Virus record (IMG/VR): IMGVR_UViG_3300027974_000095
Location: 1 to 32,186 of that record
Strand: one strand, 5' to 3'
From: a virus
Length of the DNA stretch: 32,186 nt
Shown here: positions 4,379-15,885 of the stretch, one piece after another
Layout of the letters: each line of letters starts with the position of its first letter
Position numbering within the stretch: position 1 is the stretch's first letter
Program-made: the position numbers and the translations under genes
The notes under the pieces: generated by a model
The model's database searches: none
What the model was told of the DNA's origin: nothing
The model's input: only the letters and a program-made list of their open reading frames with translations

Positions 4379-4736
4379 GAGCGCCCTCAGAAAGCGCCCT
4401 ATGACTTGCGTGGAGTTGGCCGCCACCGTGTTCCTGTCAGAGCGTGCGGTTGAGCACAACATGAATAGGATGCATGAGCGCGGCCAGGTCCATGTCGCAG
4501 GCTGGGAGCGTACTGCTGGATCATTTGCTCGTGTCTATGCTTTTGGAATAGGCGCTGATGTCCCCAGGCCAGAGCGTAAATCTGTGCGCGAGAGGGTCCA
4601 GCGTTTGCGTAAGCGCGAGTCCCAGGAGGACAAAGACTTTCGGCTGGCGCGTGAGCGTGGCAAGCGCAGGAAGATCAAGGTTGATCCGCTGATGGCGGCT
4701 TTTTATGGAGCCAGCAAGCCGCCAATTTCTTTTTGA
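4350..4736 (+). CDS. Winged-helix-like basic DNA-binding protein
   Basis: The 128-residue product starts at GTG 4350, overlapping the zinc-ribbon gene by 29 nt. Residues about 5-55 look like a winged helix (LKQIESALRKRPMTCVELAA, then SERAVEHNMNRMHERGQVHV), with helix-turn-helix and wing. The second half (about 75-115) is highly basic (RERVQRLRKRESQEDKDFRL, RERGKRRKIKV). This combination suggests a DNA-binding regulator or a nucleic-acid-bound accessory protein. It is the last gene of the rightward operon. Its final 34 nt overlap, tail to tail, the last gene of the late operon, with no terminator visible between them. The start codon is uncertain because the ribosome site is weak. Confidence 0.58.
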   Translation: MQPTRLKQIESALRKRPMTCVELAATVFLSERAVEHNMNRMHERGQVHVAGWERTAGSFARVYAFGIGADVPRPERKSVRERVQRLRKRESQEDKDFRLARERGKRRKIKVDPLMAAFYGASKPPISF

Positions 4737-9761: not shown

Positions 9762-10511
9762 TTATCCAAAGTATCCGAGCAGGCCACCAAGCAAAGCGCC
9801 GGTTCCACCGTAGTCTGCGCCGCCTAGACGTTGGCCTGCCAATGCCCCACCAAGTCCACCAGCAGTACGGTTCTGGTAGTACGGTTGCGTACTCGTCATC
9901 CCGAGGTTGGGTAGGTTAATTCCAAGTGCTCCAGATGCAATCCCCAGCTTCTCCACCCCAATGTTGCGCAGTGCATCCATCTGGGCCTGCTCCAACTGCT
10001 GACGCGCACTACCAAGTCCCATTACTGCCTGTCCTCCTGAGATATTTGCTCCTTTTGCGTACTGAGCCAGACCAGCAGCAGTGTTATATCCACTCGCACG
10101 CATCTGCGCGGCAGTGTCAGCCGCCTGCTTAATGGCTGCTGCATTTGTCAGTGACTCTGCAACGCCCTGGCGTGATCCACCAAATGCCTTAGCAGCAGTC
10201 GCAGCCTGACGGTCTCGCAGTTGCTGAGTCTGCAAAGCGCCACCGACATCACCCAGAGCACGCTGGATAACGTCTGTTTCGTAGGGGTTCATAAACTGCT
10301 GGATGGACTGACCCGTAAACGGTGTCAGAGCCTCGTTTGTGACTTGCTGCTCTCCCGCCGTATACAGAGGATTGAAACCAGCAAATTGCCGTACTGGCAA
10401 CGCACCAGCAACGCTCTGAGCCTGCCCTAAGTTGCGGAGATACGCCTCTTTAAGACTAGGATCAATTGATGTGGTGCTGGTTGTAGTTCCAGATGCGCCG
10501 CCTTTAGACAT
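9762..10511 (-). CDS. Internal virion protein, FGGSRQG family
   Basis: This 249-residue protein is taken from the ATG at 10511 (MSKGGASGTTTSTTSIDPSL) because AAGGAG lies 6-7 nt upstream and because it then clears the end of the preceding gene (stop at 10522); a start at 10541 would overlap it. Residues about 25-130 contain LRNLGQAQSVAGALPVRQFA, MNPYETDVIQRAL and AKAFGGSRQGVAESL, a pattern I recall from conserved proteins of aquatic podoviruses. The C-terminal part is Gly-rich (GGLGGALAGQRLGGADYGGT). High Ala, Gln and Gly content and predicted helices fit an internal, membrane-active ejection protein comparable in size to T7 gp14. The function is inferred from size, composition and position. 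Confidence 0.5.
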   Translation of the reverse strand: MSKGGASGTTTSTTSIDPSLKEAYLRNLGQAQSVAGALPVRQFAGFNPLYTAGEQQVTNEALTPFTGQSIQQFMNPYETDVIQRALGDVGGALQTQQLRDRQAATAAKAFGGSRQGVAESLTNAAAIKQAADTAAQMRASGYNTAAGLAQYAKGANISGGQAVMGLGSARQQLEQAQMDALRNIGVEKLGIASGALGINLPNLGMTSTQPYYQNRTAGGLGGALAGQRLGGADYGGTGALLGGLLGYFG

Positions 10512-10521
10512 ATCGTTCTCC

Positions 10522-11418
10522 TTACATTTCGAGCAAGCCAAGCAGCTTACCCTTTGAAATCTTGCCCGAGTTAATGGCCTGCATCAACTCAATACCGTAC
10601 TTCTTGACCGCCTTGTCGTTGATGACAAACTCGCCATCCTTGAGCGCAGCGTATCCATCATCAGGACCCATTGGGTCTGGGCCTTGCAAGTGCTGCATGG
10701 TTACATGACCGCCTTCGTAATATCCTGTACCTGTACGCAATGCTGCTCGTGTAGCAGATGATTGAGAACTAAGCATCCCTCCACCTCCAGTAATAGCGCC
10801 ATTGCCTTTCCCACTACCGCCATCTTCTCCATCTGATTGGCTACTCTCTCGAATAGGTTGTCGAGCAGCCTCTCTTGCTGCAGCCTCTGCTGCTATTTGC
10901 TGGGGGGTTACTGGTACAAATCCACCAGTTGCTTGTGCAGCTTGTGCAGGGTCTCTAACAGTATTTACAGAACCTAAATTTGTTGTAAATAACGCATTCA
11001 TATTAGGAGGGCCACTATCTTGAACAGTGGTAGGAATTATTCCTTTTGCAATTAGATTTTGGTTACTTACAAAATCAGGATTCCCATATTTTTGCGCTAA
11101 TCCCAAAAGTCCTGTATTGCTAAACAGGTTTTGACCAATTTGTGTAACTTTTGCCCAGCTTGGATTATTAGCATAAAAAGTTGCCTTTTCTGCATCAGAC
11201 ATAGCAGTCCAAGTAGGGTTGTAATCTACAACCCTACCACCTGGACCGGTCATAGCAGACTGCTCCATGATGTCAGCGTAACTATTTACTGGAGCAATGT
11301 ATTGTTGTGGTTGCGATACGTTATAGCCGCCGGTATAAGTAGATGGGTAACCAGTGAAAGAAAACGGCTGCGCCTGCTGGTACTGCGCCATGATCTCAGC
11401 GTAACGGTTCCTGTCCAT
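10522..11418 (-). CDS. Virion-associated protein with conserved C-terminal phage module
   Basis: The 298-residue protein starts at 11418 behind AAGGAG. The N-terminal half is rich in Gln, Tyr, Pro and Asn. A disordered Ser/Gly segment (about 190-230) follows. The last 60 residues form a compact module: YYEGGHVTMQHLQGPDPMGP, DDGYAALKDGEFVINDKAVK and KYGIELMQAINSGKISKGKL. Modules of the type G-E-F-V-I plus a helical tail are common in phage virion-associated proteins. It lies in the run of internal/tail proteins after the gp10-like hub. No enzymatic motif is seen. Confidence 0.48.
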   Translation of the reverse strand: MDRNRYAEIMAQYQQAQPFSFTGYPSTYTGGYNVSQPQQYIAPVNSYADIMEQSAMTGPGGRVVDYNPTWTAMSDAEKATFYANNPSWAKVTQIGQNLFSNTGLLGLAQKYGNPDFVSNQNLIAKGIIPTTVQDSGPPNMNALFTTNLGSVNTVRDPAQAAQATGGFVPVTPQQIAAEAAAREAARQPIRESSQSDGEDGGSGKGNGAITGGGGMLSSQSSATRAALRTGTGYYEGGHVTMQHLQGPDPMGPDDGYAALKDGEFVINDKAVKKYGIELMQAINSGKISKGKLLGLLEM

Positions 11419-13261: not shown

Positions 13262-13915
13262 TTACACCGATAGGTTGGATACAAACGACAGTGTAACGAT
13301 GGCAGACGGTACTGATGGCCTGGTCGGGGAAGTGCCTGCCGGATACTGCTCAATCGTCACGCCGACATCAGTAGGGCGCCACATTATTTCTACATAGTCG
13401 TTTGCGTTGAGGCTTAGATAATAATTTATAGCGGAAATTGTGTGGAACGGGTCGCCAACGCCTTTTCTTGGCGCAAACCCAAACCTTGAGTTTGACTTGT
13501 CAGCGTTAGTGCCATTCTTTCTGAACCAAACGTCAACGTCCTGGGATGCGTTTGTCGTGTTTGTAAATTGGATGGAGAACTGTATGTTGTAGATGCCAGA
13601 CTGCGATACGTTCAGCCTGGATGAGTTTGAGAGAGTGACGCCATTGCTAAAGTCGGTGGTGTCAAACGTAACGGCGTAGGCCGTTGTGGTGTTAGCCGCG
13701 ACCTGGTCTGTGGAGTCCTGGAACGCGCCATATGGAGCATTGAGGTACTTACCCCCACGCGGTCCGAATAACGCTCCCAGCGCGTTTGTGACGCGGGTGG
13801 CGTAGTTTCCGATGTTGCTGAACGTCTGGCTGAAGAACAGGCGGTCATAAACCTCGCCAGGGTTGCCGAGATTCGGCTGCGCTGGCGTTGTGATCTGGCC
13901 GCTGTAGTCGCTCAT
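13262..13915 (-). CDS. C1q/TNF-like jelly-roll tail protein
   Basis: The 217-residue protein has an N-terminal attachment-like segment (about 1-60) followed by a C1q/TNF-type beta sandwich. Recognisable strands are TTAYAVTFDTTDFSNGVTLS, RLNVSQSGIYNIQFSIQFTN, DVDVWFRKNGTNADKSNSRF, NYYLSLNANDYVEIMWRPTD and the last SAIVTLSFVSNLSV. In phages such domains trimerise and serve as tail-spike tips or head/tail decorations that touch sugars or proteins. The gene lies between the endolysin (4-nt ATGA-type overlap) and the tail hub, so a hub-attached fibre is likely. The receptor is unknown. Confidence 0.6.
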   Translation of the reverse strand: MSDYSGQITTPAQPNLGNPGEVYDRLFFSQTFSNIGNYATRVTNALGALFGPRGGKYLNAPYGAFQDSTDQVAANTTTAYAVTFDTTDFSNGVTLSNSSRLNVSQSGIYNIQFSIQFTNTTNASQDVDVWFRKNGTNADKSNSRFGFAPRKGVGDPFHTISAINYYLSLNANDYVEIMWRPTDVGVTIEQYPAGTSPTRPSVPSAIVTLSFVSNLSV

Positions 13916-14250
13916 ATGTTTCGTTCAAAGTGTGGGCAGTCCAGCAACGATTTGAAATTGCCTCCCCAGCGGTTCTTTTGGTGCAGGCTTTCCCAATAGG
14001 CGCCAATCGGAGCCAGGATAGCTTTGTTCCAGATGATCTTCCCGTCCTTGAAGAAGTTCAAATCCATTGCGCACCGCTTGAGGTGGATACTGTTCATGGT
14101 CTTGCTGCGGCCAGTTTTGACGTAGATAGCTTGCTGTTCTGGAGTACGGGCAAGTTCCCCACCCGTGACCATGAAGCCTTGGTCAGTTGCGTGTTGAATT
14201 AACTTGCACATATCCAGCAGGAATGCTGCTTGTTCTTGACTAAGGCTCAT
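13912..14250 (-). CDS. Endolysin, M15 peptidase (VanY/L-alanyl-D-glutamate type)
   Basis: This 112-residue cell-wall endopeptidase would cut peptide cross-links in peptidoglycan at the end of infection. Zinc ligands of the M15 family are visible as S-x-H and A-x-D in MNSIHLKRCAMDLNFF (H56, D63) and as the final histidine in CPHFE (H107). D104 or E109 is the likely general-base position. An N-terminal helix and QGFMVTGGELARTPEQQ match the common start of phage M15 lysins. There is no signal peptide or cell-wall-binding domain, so it needs a holin for release. Its ATG overlaps the stop of the two-span membrane protein as ATGA. It ends with ATGA overlap to the C1q-like gene. Confidence 0.88.
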   Translation of the reverse strand: MSLSQEQAAFLLDMCKLIQHATDQGFMVTGGELARTPEQQAIYVKTGRSKTMNSIHLKRCAMDLNFFKDGKIIWNKAILAPIGAYWESLHQKNRWGGNFKSLLDCPHFERNI

Positions 14251-14492
14251 ACCACCTCCGATTGTTTGGGTTCTTCATCTGTTTCGCCGTGGGACAACTT
14301 TACACCCGCCAGTAGGCCGATAAAGCCACCTACGATGGTTTGAAATGCTGGGCTGATAAGTTTAAAAATTTCAGCGTTGTCCACTTTTTCGTCAAACAAT
14401 CCAGCCATCAGCACCGCGACCATTCCGATGATTACTACGCACAGAGTAAAGCTGACCATGAGAGTCACAAGGAAAGTCAGCTTGGCTTTCAT
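14247..14492 (-). CDS. Two-span holin-like membrane protein
   Basis: This 81-residue protein has two hydrophobic segments: about 5-32 (LTFLVTLMVSFTLCVVIIGM onwards) and 47-67 (ISPAFQTIVGGFIGLLAGVK). It has a charged N-terminus and an acidic, polar tail (SHGETDEEPKQSEVV). Size and topology fit class II holins or antiholins. It is directly upstream of the endolysin and directly downstream of the other holin-like gene, with ATGA overlaps to both. Having two holin-type genes in series is common in phages, where one acts as holin and the other as antiholin or pinholin; which is which cannot be said. Confidence 0.6.
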   Translation of the reverse strand: MKAKLTFLVTLMVSFTLCVVIIGMVAVLMAGLFDEKVDNAEIFKLISPAFQTIVGGFIGLLAGVKLSHGETDEEPKQSEVV

Positions 14493-15001
14493 TTATTGCT
14501 CCTCATCTCTGCCAGCTTCTCTACAGTCCTTGCGCAAAAATAAGCGCCCATAATCAGCTGCCCCCAATTTCCCAACAATGTTACGTAACTTTCGTTGGCG
14601 TTATAGCCAAAAGCCGACATCATGGCAAACAAGAAAAAAGCAAAAAAGACGGCAATCAGCGCCATTGGGCGGATATTCTTTGAGAGCCATGAATCAGAGT
14701 TCATGTCCGCTTTCCAACGGTCTGTGACGTTCTCTGCATCGCTCTGCGCGGCCTTGGCCAGCAGTTCCAACTCAGCCAACTCCAACTTGGCCTTCTCAAT
14801 ACCCAACTCCAGCAAGCGTTCCTCATGGTCGTATTGCAATTGCCGCAGCTTGGCAACGTCTTCGGGAGTGGGATTGTCGGGAATCTTCACGCCCAAAGTG
14901 TTTTCAACGACTTCTTTGCCCTTGGCCTGAATAGCAGAGGACAGCAGTCCCAAGCCGTTTTCTGCCAACGTGCCTAGCAATGCGCCAAGAATTGGAATCA
15001 T
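14489..15001 (-). CDS. 3TM-type holin
   Basis: The product has 170 residues from the ATG at 15001, which shares one base with the upstream stop (TGATG); the codon at 15004 is TTG and belongs to that stop region. The pattern is that of the 3TM phage holin family: a hydrophobic/amphipathic N-terminus (MIPILGALLG), a charged helical middle (about 47-100, with LRQLQYDHEERLLELGIEKA), then SWLSKNIRPMALIAVFFAFF (105-124), and a last span with YVTLLGNWGQLIMGAYFCAR ending RTVEKLAE. The RP-before-span element and the aromatic Y-F-x-x-R-T ending are diagnostic in my memory of this family. The predicted role is to form the lesion that lets the M15 lysin reach the wall. Confidence 0.72.
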   Translation of the reverse strand: MIPILGALLGTLAENGLGLLSSAIQAKGKEVVENTLGVKIPDNPTPEDVAKLRQLQYDHEERLLELGIEKAKLELAELELLAKAAQSDAENVTDRWKADMNSDSWLSKNIRPMALIAVFFAFFLFAMMSAFGYNANESYVTLLGNWGQLIMGAYFCARTVEKLAEMRSNK

Positions 15002-15491
15002 CAAAAACCCCTATTTGTGATAACGTGAAATGCAACGCTAACCAATGGAACAATGATAGCGGACGCACCGGTAATCCACAGTGTGTTCATAATAATTGTT
15101 ACCTTCATCTCTTTGTCCTTCTGCTTACGCTCCGCGTCTTCTCTTTCCAGCGTATTGCGTTCCTTAATCATCCTAGTGCGCTCTGCCATCATCTCTTCCC
15201 ACACTGGAGCATTGCCTGAGTAGAAAAGAATGTCCTTCAGTTCTTTCTCATGTTCTCGCAATGCTTTGGAGGCCATTGCAATCTGGAGAGCCTGAGAACT
15301 TATCTGTGCATCTGTCTTCCCTATGCTTGCAATCCGCGCCTTGCTGCTTGCTAGGTGAACTGTATCCGCTGCTTGATAAAAACTGCTGAATTCTTTATAG
15401 AGGCTGTGGATGTCTTTACCAAGAGCGACCGCTTTTTTATGCCAGCTACAGCACCTTGCGCCATAGCAAATGCCGTGAATGGGTCAATCAT
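15001..15491 (-). CDS. Frameshift-encoded coiled-coil membrane protein of the lysis region
   Basis: Two overlapping frames make one protein. Frame 0 starts at ATG 15491 (ATGA overlap with the upstream stop) and reads MIDPFTAFAMAQGAVAGIKK before a stop at 15351-15353 after 46 codons. A -1 shift at 15432-15438 joins it to the frame that is open to 15001: KK-AVALGKDIHSLYKEFSSF and on, 163 residues in all. The joined protein is coherent: an amphipathic N-terminus, a charged coil (about 95-130, with MMAERTRMIKERNTLEREDA) and one transmembrane span (about 134-158, TIIMNTLWITGASAIIVPLV). The only ATG in the second frame (15276) has no ribosome site. The N-terminal style (DPFTAFA-x-AQ) recalls a conserved protein of aquatic phages. 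A true frameshift or a missing base in the A-run are both possible. Confidence 0.65.
15432..15438 (-). other. Slippery heptamer A_AAA_AAG for -1 frameshift
   Basis: In the zero frame from ATG 15491 the codons read GGC ATA AAA AAG CGG, so the heptamer A AAA AAG is in the exact phase required for tandem slippage of two lysine tRNAs. This is the strongest known bacterial -1 site (dnaX, IS3-family transposases). After the shift the next codon is GCG and the reading frame stays open for 143 more residues. A clear downstream hairpin is not obvious; AAGG about 15-18 nt upstream is a distant Shine-Dalgarno-like element. Confidence 0.6.
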
Positions 15492-15655
15492 TTTTTGTTC
15501 ACTACCGCCCACCGGCAGATGCGTCCATCTTTGTCCACGAATTCGTTTGCACCCATCTTTTTGTCCTCATCTTTTTTAGGAATACGACAAACCAAAACGG
15601 TCTTTGTTTCAGTGTTGGGCCACGGGCTTTCCGCTGAGACAAGTTGGTCGATCAC
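15488..15655 (-). CDS. 55-residue protein between lysis-region genes, unknown
   Basis: This small gene starts at GTG 15655, overlapping the upstream stop (GTGA), and stops at 15488-15490, overlapping the next ATG (ATGA). The peptide begins VIDQLVSAESPWPNTETKTV (first residue made as Met) and contains LVCRIPKKDEDKKMG and DKDGRICRWAVVNKK. It is soluble and basic at the end, with two cysteines (C23, C47). It fills what would otherwise be a 160-nt gap and keeps the unbroken chain of stop-start overlaps, which is strong support. The family is not recognised. Confidence 0.62.
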   Translation of the reverse strand: MIDQLVSAESPWPNTETKTVLVCRIPKKDEDKKMGANEFVDKDGRICRWAVVNKK

Positions 15656-15885
15656 TTGTCGGCCTTGTTCTCCAGCTTGTCAAAGATGCGCTCTAGGGTA
15701 GCGTCAATCTTGTCTAGTCGGCTCTCAATGTCTGCCTTACTAACGTAGTTCTTTGGAAGATCAATCTCAATATGCTTGATGTCTTCTTTAAGCGTCTTGA
15801 CCGAGTCCCATATCTCTTTGCACCACCAGCCAACCGCGACCAGGATCGCGCCTCCGATGAAATTAAACATTGGCTGGAATTCCAT
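15652..15885 (-). CDS. Membrane-anchored coiled-coil protein (lysis region)
   Basis: The 77-residue protein has one N-terminal transmembrane segment (about 8-22, NFIGGAILVAVGWWC). A helical charged domain follows with KEIWDSVKTLKEDIKHIEID, LPKNYVSKADIESRLDKIDA and TLERIFDKLENKADK. An N-terminal anchor followed by a coiled coil and an LPKNYV-x-KxD element is common in small phage proteins next to lysis genes (hemolysin XhlA-like or i-spanin-like in shape). It could act as an inner-membrane accessory for lysis, but no lipoprotein partner with a lipobox is seen nearby, so a spanin role is unproven. It starts 2 nt after the stop of the 95-residue gene and ends with GTGA overlap. Confidence 0.6.
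   Translation of the reverse strand: MEFQPMFNFIGGAILVAVGWWCKEIWDSVKTLKEDIKHIEIDLPKNYVSKADIESRLDKIDATLERIFDKLENKADK

Follow-up and report, generated by a model that had tools for sequence, protein, structure and literature searches.

The window, by which we mean the whole stretch of 32186 bases that was analysed (IMG/VR virus record IMGVR_UViG_3300027974_000095), encodes an SU10-type portal and a terminase together with a head protein and a scaffold. The nearest match of the terminase in the phage collection is ctjtQ328 (MW202879, 69%). An earlier note, made from the letters of the DNA alone, had placed the gene studied here in a lysis region. This is supported, as a gene of the holin family phrog_3427 follows directly downstream, then a gene with a weak holin match and then an M15 endolysin (Table 1). 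The holin gene has an SD-like motif of its own, AGGGG at 15012-15008. A scan for promoters and terminators gave 2 and 5 sites, respectively, which is inside the range given by shuffles.

Table 1. Features of the locus, in window positions except for the last row, which refers to two other loci
Feature	Position	Strand	Remarks
77-aa protein	15652..15885	-	PHROG phrog_462 (lipoprotein); weakly phrog_1193 (hemolysin)
55-aa ORF, upstream	15488..15655	-	no family match; stop overlaps the ATG of the frameshift gene (ATGA)
0-frame ORF, 46 codons, predicted short product	15351..15491	-	ATG 15491, TAG 15353-15351
Putative slippery heptamer A_AAA_AAG	15432..15438	-	0-frame codons ATA AAA AAG
Spacer between heptamer and stem	15427..15431	-	5 nt
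Proposed stem, 5' arm	15412..15426	-	offsets 65-79; RNAalifold, pair counts, covariation
Proposed stem, 3' arm	15368..15383	-	offsets 108-123, bulged base 15371; RNAalifold, pair counts, covariation
-1-frame part, residues 21-163	15001..15432	-	stop TGA 15003-15001
Holin-family gene, next after the frameshift gene	14489..15001	-	phrog_3427, 6.8e-15; Pfam GTA_holin_3TM below cut-off
81-aa protein	14247..14492	-	weak holin match, phrog_785, E 0.044
Endolysin, Peptidase_M15_4	13912..14250	-	
Variant region	L213 ~1622-1700; L217 ~4521-4600	reverse	

The reading of the frames was repeated and agrees with the earlier description: the heptamer lies within the 46-codon frame in the register that a -1 slip requires, the -1 frame, read from the last base of the heptamer, stays open as far as 15001, which gives a fusion of 163 aa, and the stop-start overlaps are present (GTGA at 15655, ATGA at 15491 and TGATG at 15003-14999). 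The -1-frame part consists of a charged helical portion and a C-terminal hydrophobic segment. The fusion matches phrog_32327 with residues 1-146 at 7e-13 and, weakly, phrog_2990, both of unknown function. As AAAAAAG occurs five times in the window when both strands are counted, the heptamer alone proves nothing; what counts is its conservation.

Relatives were collected by an IMG/VR similarity search with the 163-aa protein, the seed peptides of which do not touch the slippery site, and the best 80 of 449 were used. In 78 of these 80 contigs ATAAAAAAGC is identical and stands in the -1 relation, so that the proposed alignment of homologues did find A_AAA_AAG conserved with an out-of-frame downstream part. 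The two exceptions among the best 80 are L047, the DNA of which begins inside the site, and L002, which carries a variant described below. When the similarity-search genes of at least 485 nt were clustered at 97% identity, the site was present in 57 of 58 clusters. Pattern scans gave at least 119 stretches with the frameshift form and 23 with an in-frame form; with all loci pooled there are at least 197 of the former and 24 of the latter, with some contigs under two locus ids. The 178 full frameshift loci correspond to 91 distinct genes, of which 8 of 494 nt were dropped; from the remaining 83 genes of 491 nt we took 72 representatives with less than 97% identity to each other, differing by up to 32% in ungapped nucleotide identity. 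In these 72 the invariance of the heptamer is partly due to selection, since the pattern scan required it, and 78/80 is the unbiased figure. The carriers are a group of uncultured bacterial viruses. In bacterial and archaeal genomes 61 stretches fit the peptide pattern and none of them encodes a relative, so neither a host nor a prophage can be named.

The arrangement could also arise if one A were missing from a run of seven through a sequencing or assembly error, the gene truly being read in a single frame, and close sisters indeed carry ATAAAAAAAGC in one frame (L208, L210, L219). The agreement of 78 of the 80 contigs used (best 80 of 449) speaks against this, and contigs of a single data set, 3300027759, hold both the in-frame form with seven A (L219) and the out-of-frame form with six A (L009, L046), which argues against an assembly artefact. 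In addition, a stop codon of the 0 frame is kept in all representatives, as described below. This explanation, which the earlier note had offered as the competing one, is not credible and we give it next to no chance.

To locate the constrained frame, non-synonymous and synonymous changes were compared for single-change codons in the 72 representatives. Positions are given as offsets, offset k being window position 15491 minus k. Before the site frame 0 has a ratio of 0.14 and frame -1 one of 152. From the site to offset 215 the values are 0.10 for frame -1 and 8.6 for frame 0, and beyond offset 215 they are 0.14 and 7.1, respectively. The -1 frame is free of ATG for 52-80 codons past the site, and it is the only frame that is constrained there. 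The first ATG of this frame lies at offset 215 in 19 of the 72 representatives and at offset 299 in the other 53. The constrained stretch just past the site must therefore be reached via a change of frame.

A pair of genes, one for a short peptide and the other for a protein whose translation begins in the -1 frame, either independently or by re-initiation, would be suggested in the window by the ATG at 15276, the first one past the heptamer, which opens a 91-aa ORF. GTG or TTG codons also precede the first ATG of the -1 frame in 33 of the 72 relatives, mostly at offsets 230-287, with four at offset 68 and one ahead of the site. Against this stand the strong constraint between the site and offset 215, the shifting position of the first ATG and the fact that both parts form one protein in the single-frame homologues (87 loci). 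None of the SD-like motifs tested was found ahead of the first -1-frame ATG in any of the 72, which bears out the earlier statement that the second frame is without a ribosome site of its own, for the ATG starts tested. An independent ATG start in the -1 frame was therefore rejected, as the constraint precedes the ATG and no SD-like motif accompanies it, and we regard the two-gene explanation as a whole as very improbable.

In all 72 representatives the 0 frame is closed by a TAG at offset 138 (window 15353-15351). This stop could be avoided silently through the overlapping -1-frame codon, yet it is kept, also in five representatives in which the -1-frame residue is Ile or Val and not Leu. Codons ending in A account for 104 of 758 Leu, 253 of 1100 Ile and 104 of 634 Val codons elsewhere in the gene. 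A stop kept in all 72 can be understood only if ribosomes do read the 0 frame, and both frames look as if they were translated. Nineteen of the 72 carry an extra TAG at offset 63, the second codon past the heptamer. These same representatives still keep the TAG at offset 138. A functional peptide encoded by the 0-frame tail was considered and rejected, as the residues of the tail vary (frame-0 ratio 8.6) and 19 representatives stop at offset 63; what this tail retains is solely its stop at offset 138.

Suppressed silent variation near the site was not counted as evidence. In 7-codon windows the observed/expected values fall to 0.66 at offsets 51-73 and to 0.57 at 98-118, and the windows in between are near 1.0. 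The lowest value of the gene, 0.47, lies at offsets 290-310, and a minimum of 0.47 is reached by shuffled codon columns in 248 of 2000 cases.

Stimulatory structures generally begin 5-8 nt downstream of the slippery site (according to PMC4066793 and PMC5009743). RNAalifold, run on 22 sequences without a given structure, returned a stem between offsets 65-79 and 108-123, which starts at offset 65 and thus 5 nt past the heptamer, within this distance, and contains a silently covarying pair. In the 72 sequences (56 distinct rows) 94.8% of the cells of the stem are paired, compared to 35.0-56.9% when the 3' arm was slid. The pair 67-121 is C-G in 37, U-A in 33 and C-C in 2 of the 72; both offsets are third positions of Ala codons and the change of the pair is silent. 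With an r2 of 1.0 over 70 two-state rows it ranks first of 2415 site pairs, these being the pairs of two-state third positions, and the next reaches 0.74. Two-state sites lying between 67 and 121 show r2 values of 0.00-0.33 with them, except for offset 112 (0.63-0.64), and offset 124, just beyond the stem, reaches 0.74 with 67/121. As offsets 112 and 124 track the pair, some of the linkage may be due to shared ancestry. On a tree built without these columns offsets 67 and 121 change nine times each, and the four independent contrasts on well-supported branches are all concordant (p 0.125).

Changes on both sides were seen in 2 of the 15 stem pairs, a number reached by 47 of 500 shuffles, and the count of further pair types in the stem is not raised (500 of 500 shuffles). 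The folding energy past the site is close to that of codon-randomised versions, with a mean z of -0.29 and 40% of the versions at least as stable; control windows elsewhere gave z values of -0.72 to 0.45. An unusually stable fold was therefore rejected. The named pairs of the stem are more complete than in the codon-randomised versions (14.2 against 11.4 of 15), and 8-12 of these pairs are formed in the single-frame sisters. Because the folding energy is not exceptional, the case for the stem rests on pairing and covariation, by which it is partly demonstrated at the sequence level, and it most likely acts as stimulator of the slip. Four of the 72 representatives (L091, L092, L190, L195) disrupt part of the stem. 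Their sequence past the site is divergent and a different hairpin is possible.

The stem also bears on slippage during transcription, in which a share of the mRNAs would receive one more A at the run. A run of A is indeed present, and such slippage would change the frame in an identical manner. RNA polymerase slippage usually requires longer runs, however, and here the run has just six A, is invariant in length and always followed by G in 78 contigs, and a stem 5 nt downstream suits ribosomal slippage better. We hold transcriptional slippage to be improbable.

The gene 15491-15001 is thus best read as one gene with a conserved programmed -1 ribosomal frameshift, with a probability of about 0.92 on the strength of the DNA comparisons. 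The frameshift proposed earlier is supported by the conserved heptamer, the switch of frame constraint, the lack of an ATG that would explain it, the kept 0-frame stop and the covarying pair of the stem. Among these, the conservation of the site, the switch of the constrained frame and the retention of the stop are established by comparison of the relatives.

A start codon followed by an open frame was looked for in a total of 112 loci (23 in-frame pattern stretches, 80 others and 9 phage records). The protein is encoded in a single frame in 87, the frameshift form was found in 20 and five showed neither, namely L204, L237 and L257, in which a start is lacking, and the variant loci L213 and L217. 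Outside the frameshift clade the examined homologues with a complete start are all read in one frame (87 loci). The same holds for the nine annotated phage records opened, out of 13 matching ones: Limnohabitans phage DC31, HMO-2011, the Roseobacter phages CRP-2, CRP-4 and CRP-345 and four Manatee Spring genomes. According to the earlier note, programming would be refuted if the homologues all read through in a single frame and had no slippery site. This applies solely outside the frameshift clade and, inside it, to the one variant lineage L213/L217; within the rest of the clade the slippery site and the shifted frame are the rule.

Residues D3 and P4 do not vary among 38 distinct single-frame proteins. 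When these proteins were placed in a quick tree with 24 frameshift proteins, one change of state was needed, with an SH-aLRT of 97 for the split, although the tool warned of long branches among distant rows. This fits a single origin of the frameshift, for which the tree may be taken as partial evidence. AlphaFold predicts, with low confidence, an all-helical structure for the single-frame sister L235 (mean pLDDT 68.5, pTM 0.49). Directly downstream of a single-frame homologue, L211 encodes a second family-like protein (9901-10674) with the N-terminus MDPLTLFALANGAVSAVKAGCKLYKDIK or similar, which is also found in L216, L218 and L221 and has no PHROG match.

The neighbours were followed by tblastn, the counts being loci with some contigs counted twice. 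Where the DNA of a frameshift locus reached far enough on the side concerned, the holin of the window was detected in 113 of 139 loci and the endolysin in 126 of 139; upstream, 150 of 171 loci had the 55-aa ORF and 117 of 171 had the 77-aa protein. In single-frame loci the searches with the neighbours of the window gave 0 of 14 and 0 of 16. In the sister L206 the gene is followed directly by a phrog_3427 holin and an Rz-like match lies upstream, and an annotated lysozyme or peptidase lies within ~1 kb downstream in 6 of the 9 phage records. The next ATG and the -1-frame stop share one base in 67 of the 72 representatives.

Several sisters read ATA AAA AAA GC at the site, with seven A. The loss of one A from such a run would disrupt the frame and create the heptamer at once, and the frameshift form plausibly originated in this way from a single-frame ancestor. 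This also fits 'savior' frameshifting, in which a fixed indel is rescued by a slippery site that has no regulatory value; it shares the frameshift with the programmed reading and differs from it in purpose, so that confidence in the one does not exclude the other. The single-frame homologues show that the full-length protein alone suffices in other phages. Runs of A easily gain and lose bases, however. The frameshift form has nevertheless been maintained across 72 representatives with differences of up to 32%, all of them retain the 0-frame stop, and the pairing of the stem lies above the slid controls. We consider a mere rescue possible and on the unlikely side.

In the variant the site reads ATC AAA AAG GCC in one frame and the -1 heptamer is lost. 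L213 is the same contig as L002 and L217 comes from another data set; a scan for the variant form matched these two alone. Both have one extra T after codon 4, which gives GAT CCT TTT CGT TGC in the ATG frame. Translation would either start at a TTG four bases further in, at the expense of the invariant D-P, or shift by +1 on UUU_CGU, which belongs to the slip site of influenza PA-X (described in PMC3498833).

For the programmed frameshift the following course of events can be proposed. Ribosomes would initiate at the ATG 15491, read 20 codons and meet A_AAA_AAG, where a fraction would slip back by one base as tRNA-Lys re-pairs from AAA_AAG to AAA_AAA, most likely assisted by the stem 5 nt further on. 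The heptamer is among the most efficient ones in E. coli (according to PMC4066793 and PMC5009743). Slipped ribosomes would produce the 163-aa helical protein with its C-terminal membrane segment. Those that do not slip would end at the TAG 15353, or in the 19 relatives at offset 63, yielding a peptide of 46 or ~21 aa from the N-terminus. In this way the slip would limit the quantity of full-length protein. The -1-frame stop and the holin ATG overlap, so that solely shifted ribosomes would reach the holin start by termination coupling, and the slip may also tune holin synthesis, though the holin has its own SD-like motif. The efficiency of the slip, the fate of the short peptide and the effect on holin and lysis are things we infer.

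What the ratio is for, be it dose control, coupling to the holin or timing of lysis, we state with far lower confidence than the frameshift itself; our best guess is that it sets how much of the membrane protein is made and is perhaps coupled to the holin. A combined reading, in which the slip rate is a timer of lysis and L213/L217 replaced the lost -1 heptamer by a +1 site, appears doubtful to us. Ribosome load or the state of tRNA-Lys would then set the output of holin via the overlapping start, strong selection for part-time decoding would stand behind the replacement, and the +1 site would be CCU UUU CGU, with UUU_CGU in common with influenza PA-X.

E. coli dnaX uses an upstream SD too, whereas an upstream SD-like motif is not conserved here, being present in 47 of the 72 representatives. 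Such an upstream stimulator is absent from some known cases of frameshifting (PMC5009743). The dnaX gene has the identical A_AAA_AAG followed by a stem loop, but there the shifted frame gives the shorter product and here the longer one, an outcome that is likely for fewer bacteria in the case of dnaX (both according to PMC5009743). Insertion sequences of the IS3/IS911 type in bacteria have A-rich heptamers as well, followed by a hairpin or a pseudoknot (PMC4066793); in difference to these, the gene described here is no transposase and its short product has merely ~21-46 aa. Recoding in tailed phages, as in the tail-assembly chaperone (lambda G-GT) and the capsid (T7/T3), yields one N-terminus with two C-termini (PMC5009743, PMC7881722), like here. 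However, the slip lies at codon 20 near the start of a lysis-region membrane protein, and this protein is encoded in a single frame in many other phages. For the RNA phage MS2 a frameshift was proposed to bring ribosomes to the lysis gene, the shifted ribosome reaching the overlapping start (PMC10885494), whereas in our case the protein itself is the product of the shift, and the next start is only perhaps reached.

With PHROGs of unknown function and with holin and endolysin as neighbours, the gene does not resemble a tail-assembly chaperone. The fusion itself has no match to a holin family; the downstream neighbours do. It contains no cysteine, hence no lipoprotein signal as in an o- or u-spanin, and no N-terminal TM as in an i-spanin, as hydropathy peaks at the C-terminus (1.5-1.9) and reaches 0.9-1.1 in the N-terminal part. 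An i-spanin with a C-terminal TMD has been named as a possibility (PMC6139136).

No DNA phage with a programmed frameshift in a membrane protein of the lysis region was found in literature that lay mostly outside subscription journals and bioRxiv. In the accessible text of PMC5009743 'holin' has 0 occurrences and 'lysis' is confined to the reference list, and the accessible parts of PMC5506516 and PMC3080317 describe no such case. The mechanism is known and the setting would be unreported, for which a search of this scope is weak evidence.

For annotation this means that an ORF finder shows at this locus just one frame of 53 or 46 codons and another of 91 codons, which concerns at least 78 contigs with the same arrangement. 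Conserved programmed frameshifting in tailed phages would be extended to a membrane protein adjoining lysis genes, and the single-frame relatives of the same protein may serve as a natural control for the benefit of part-time decoding.
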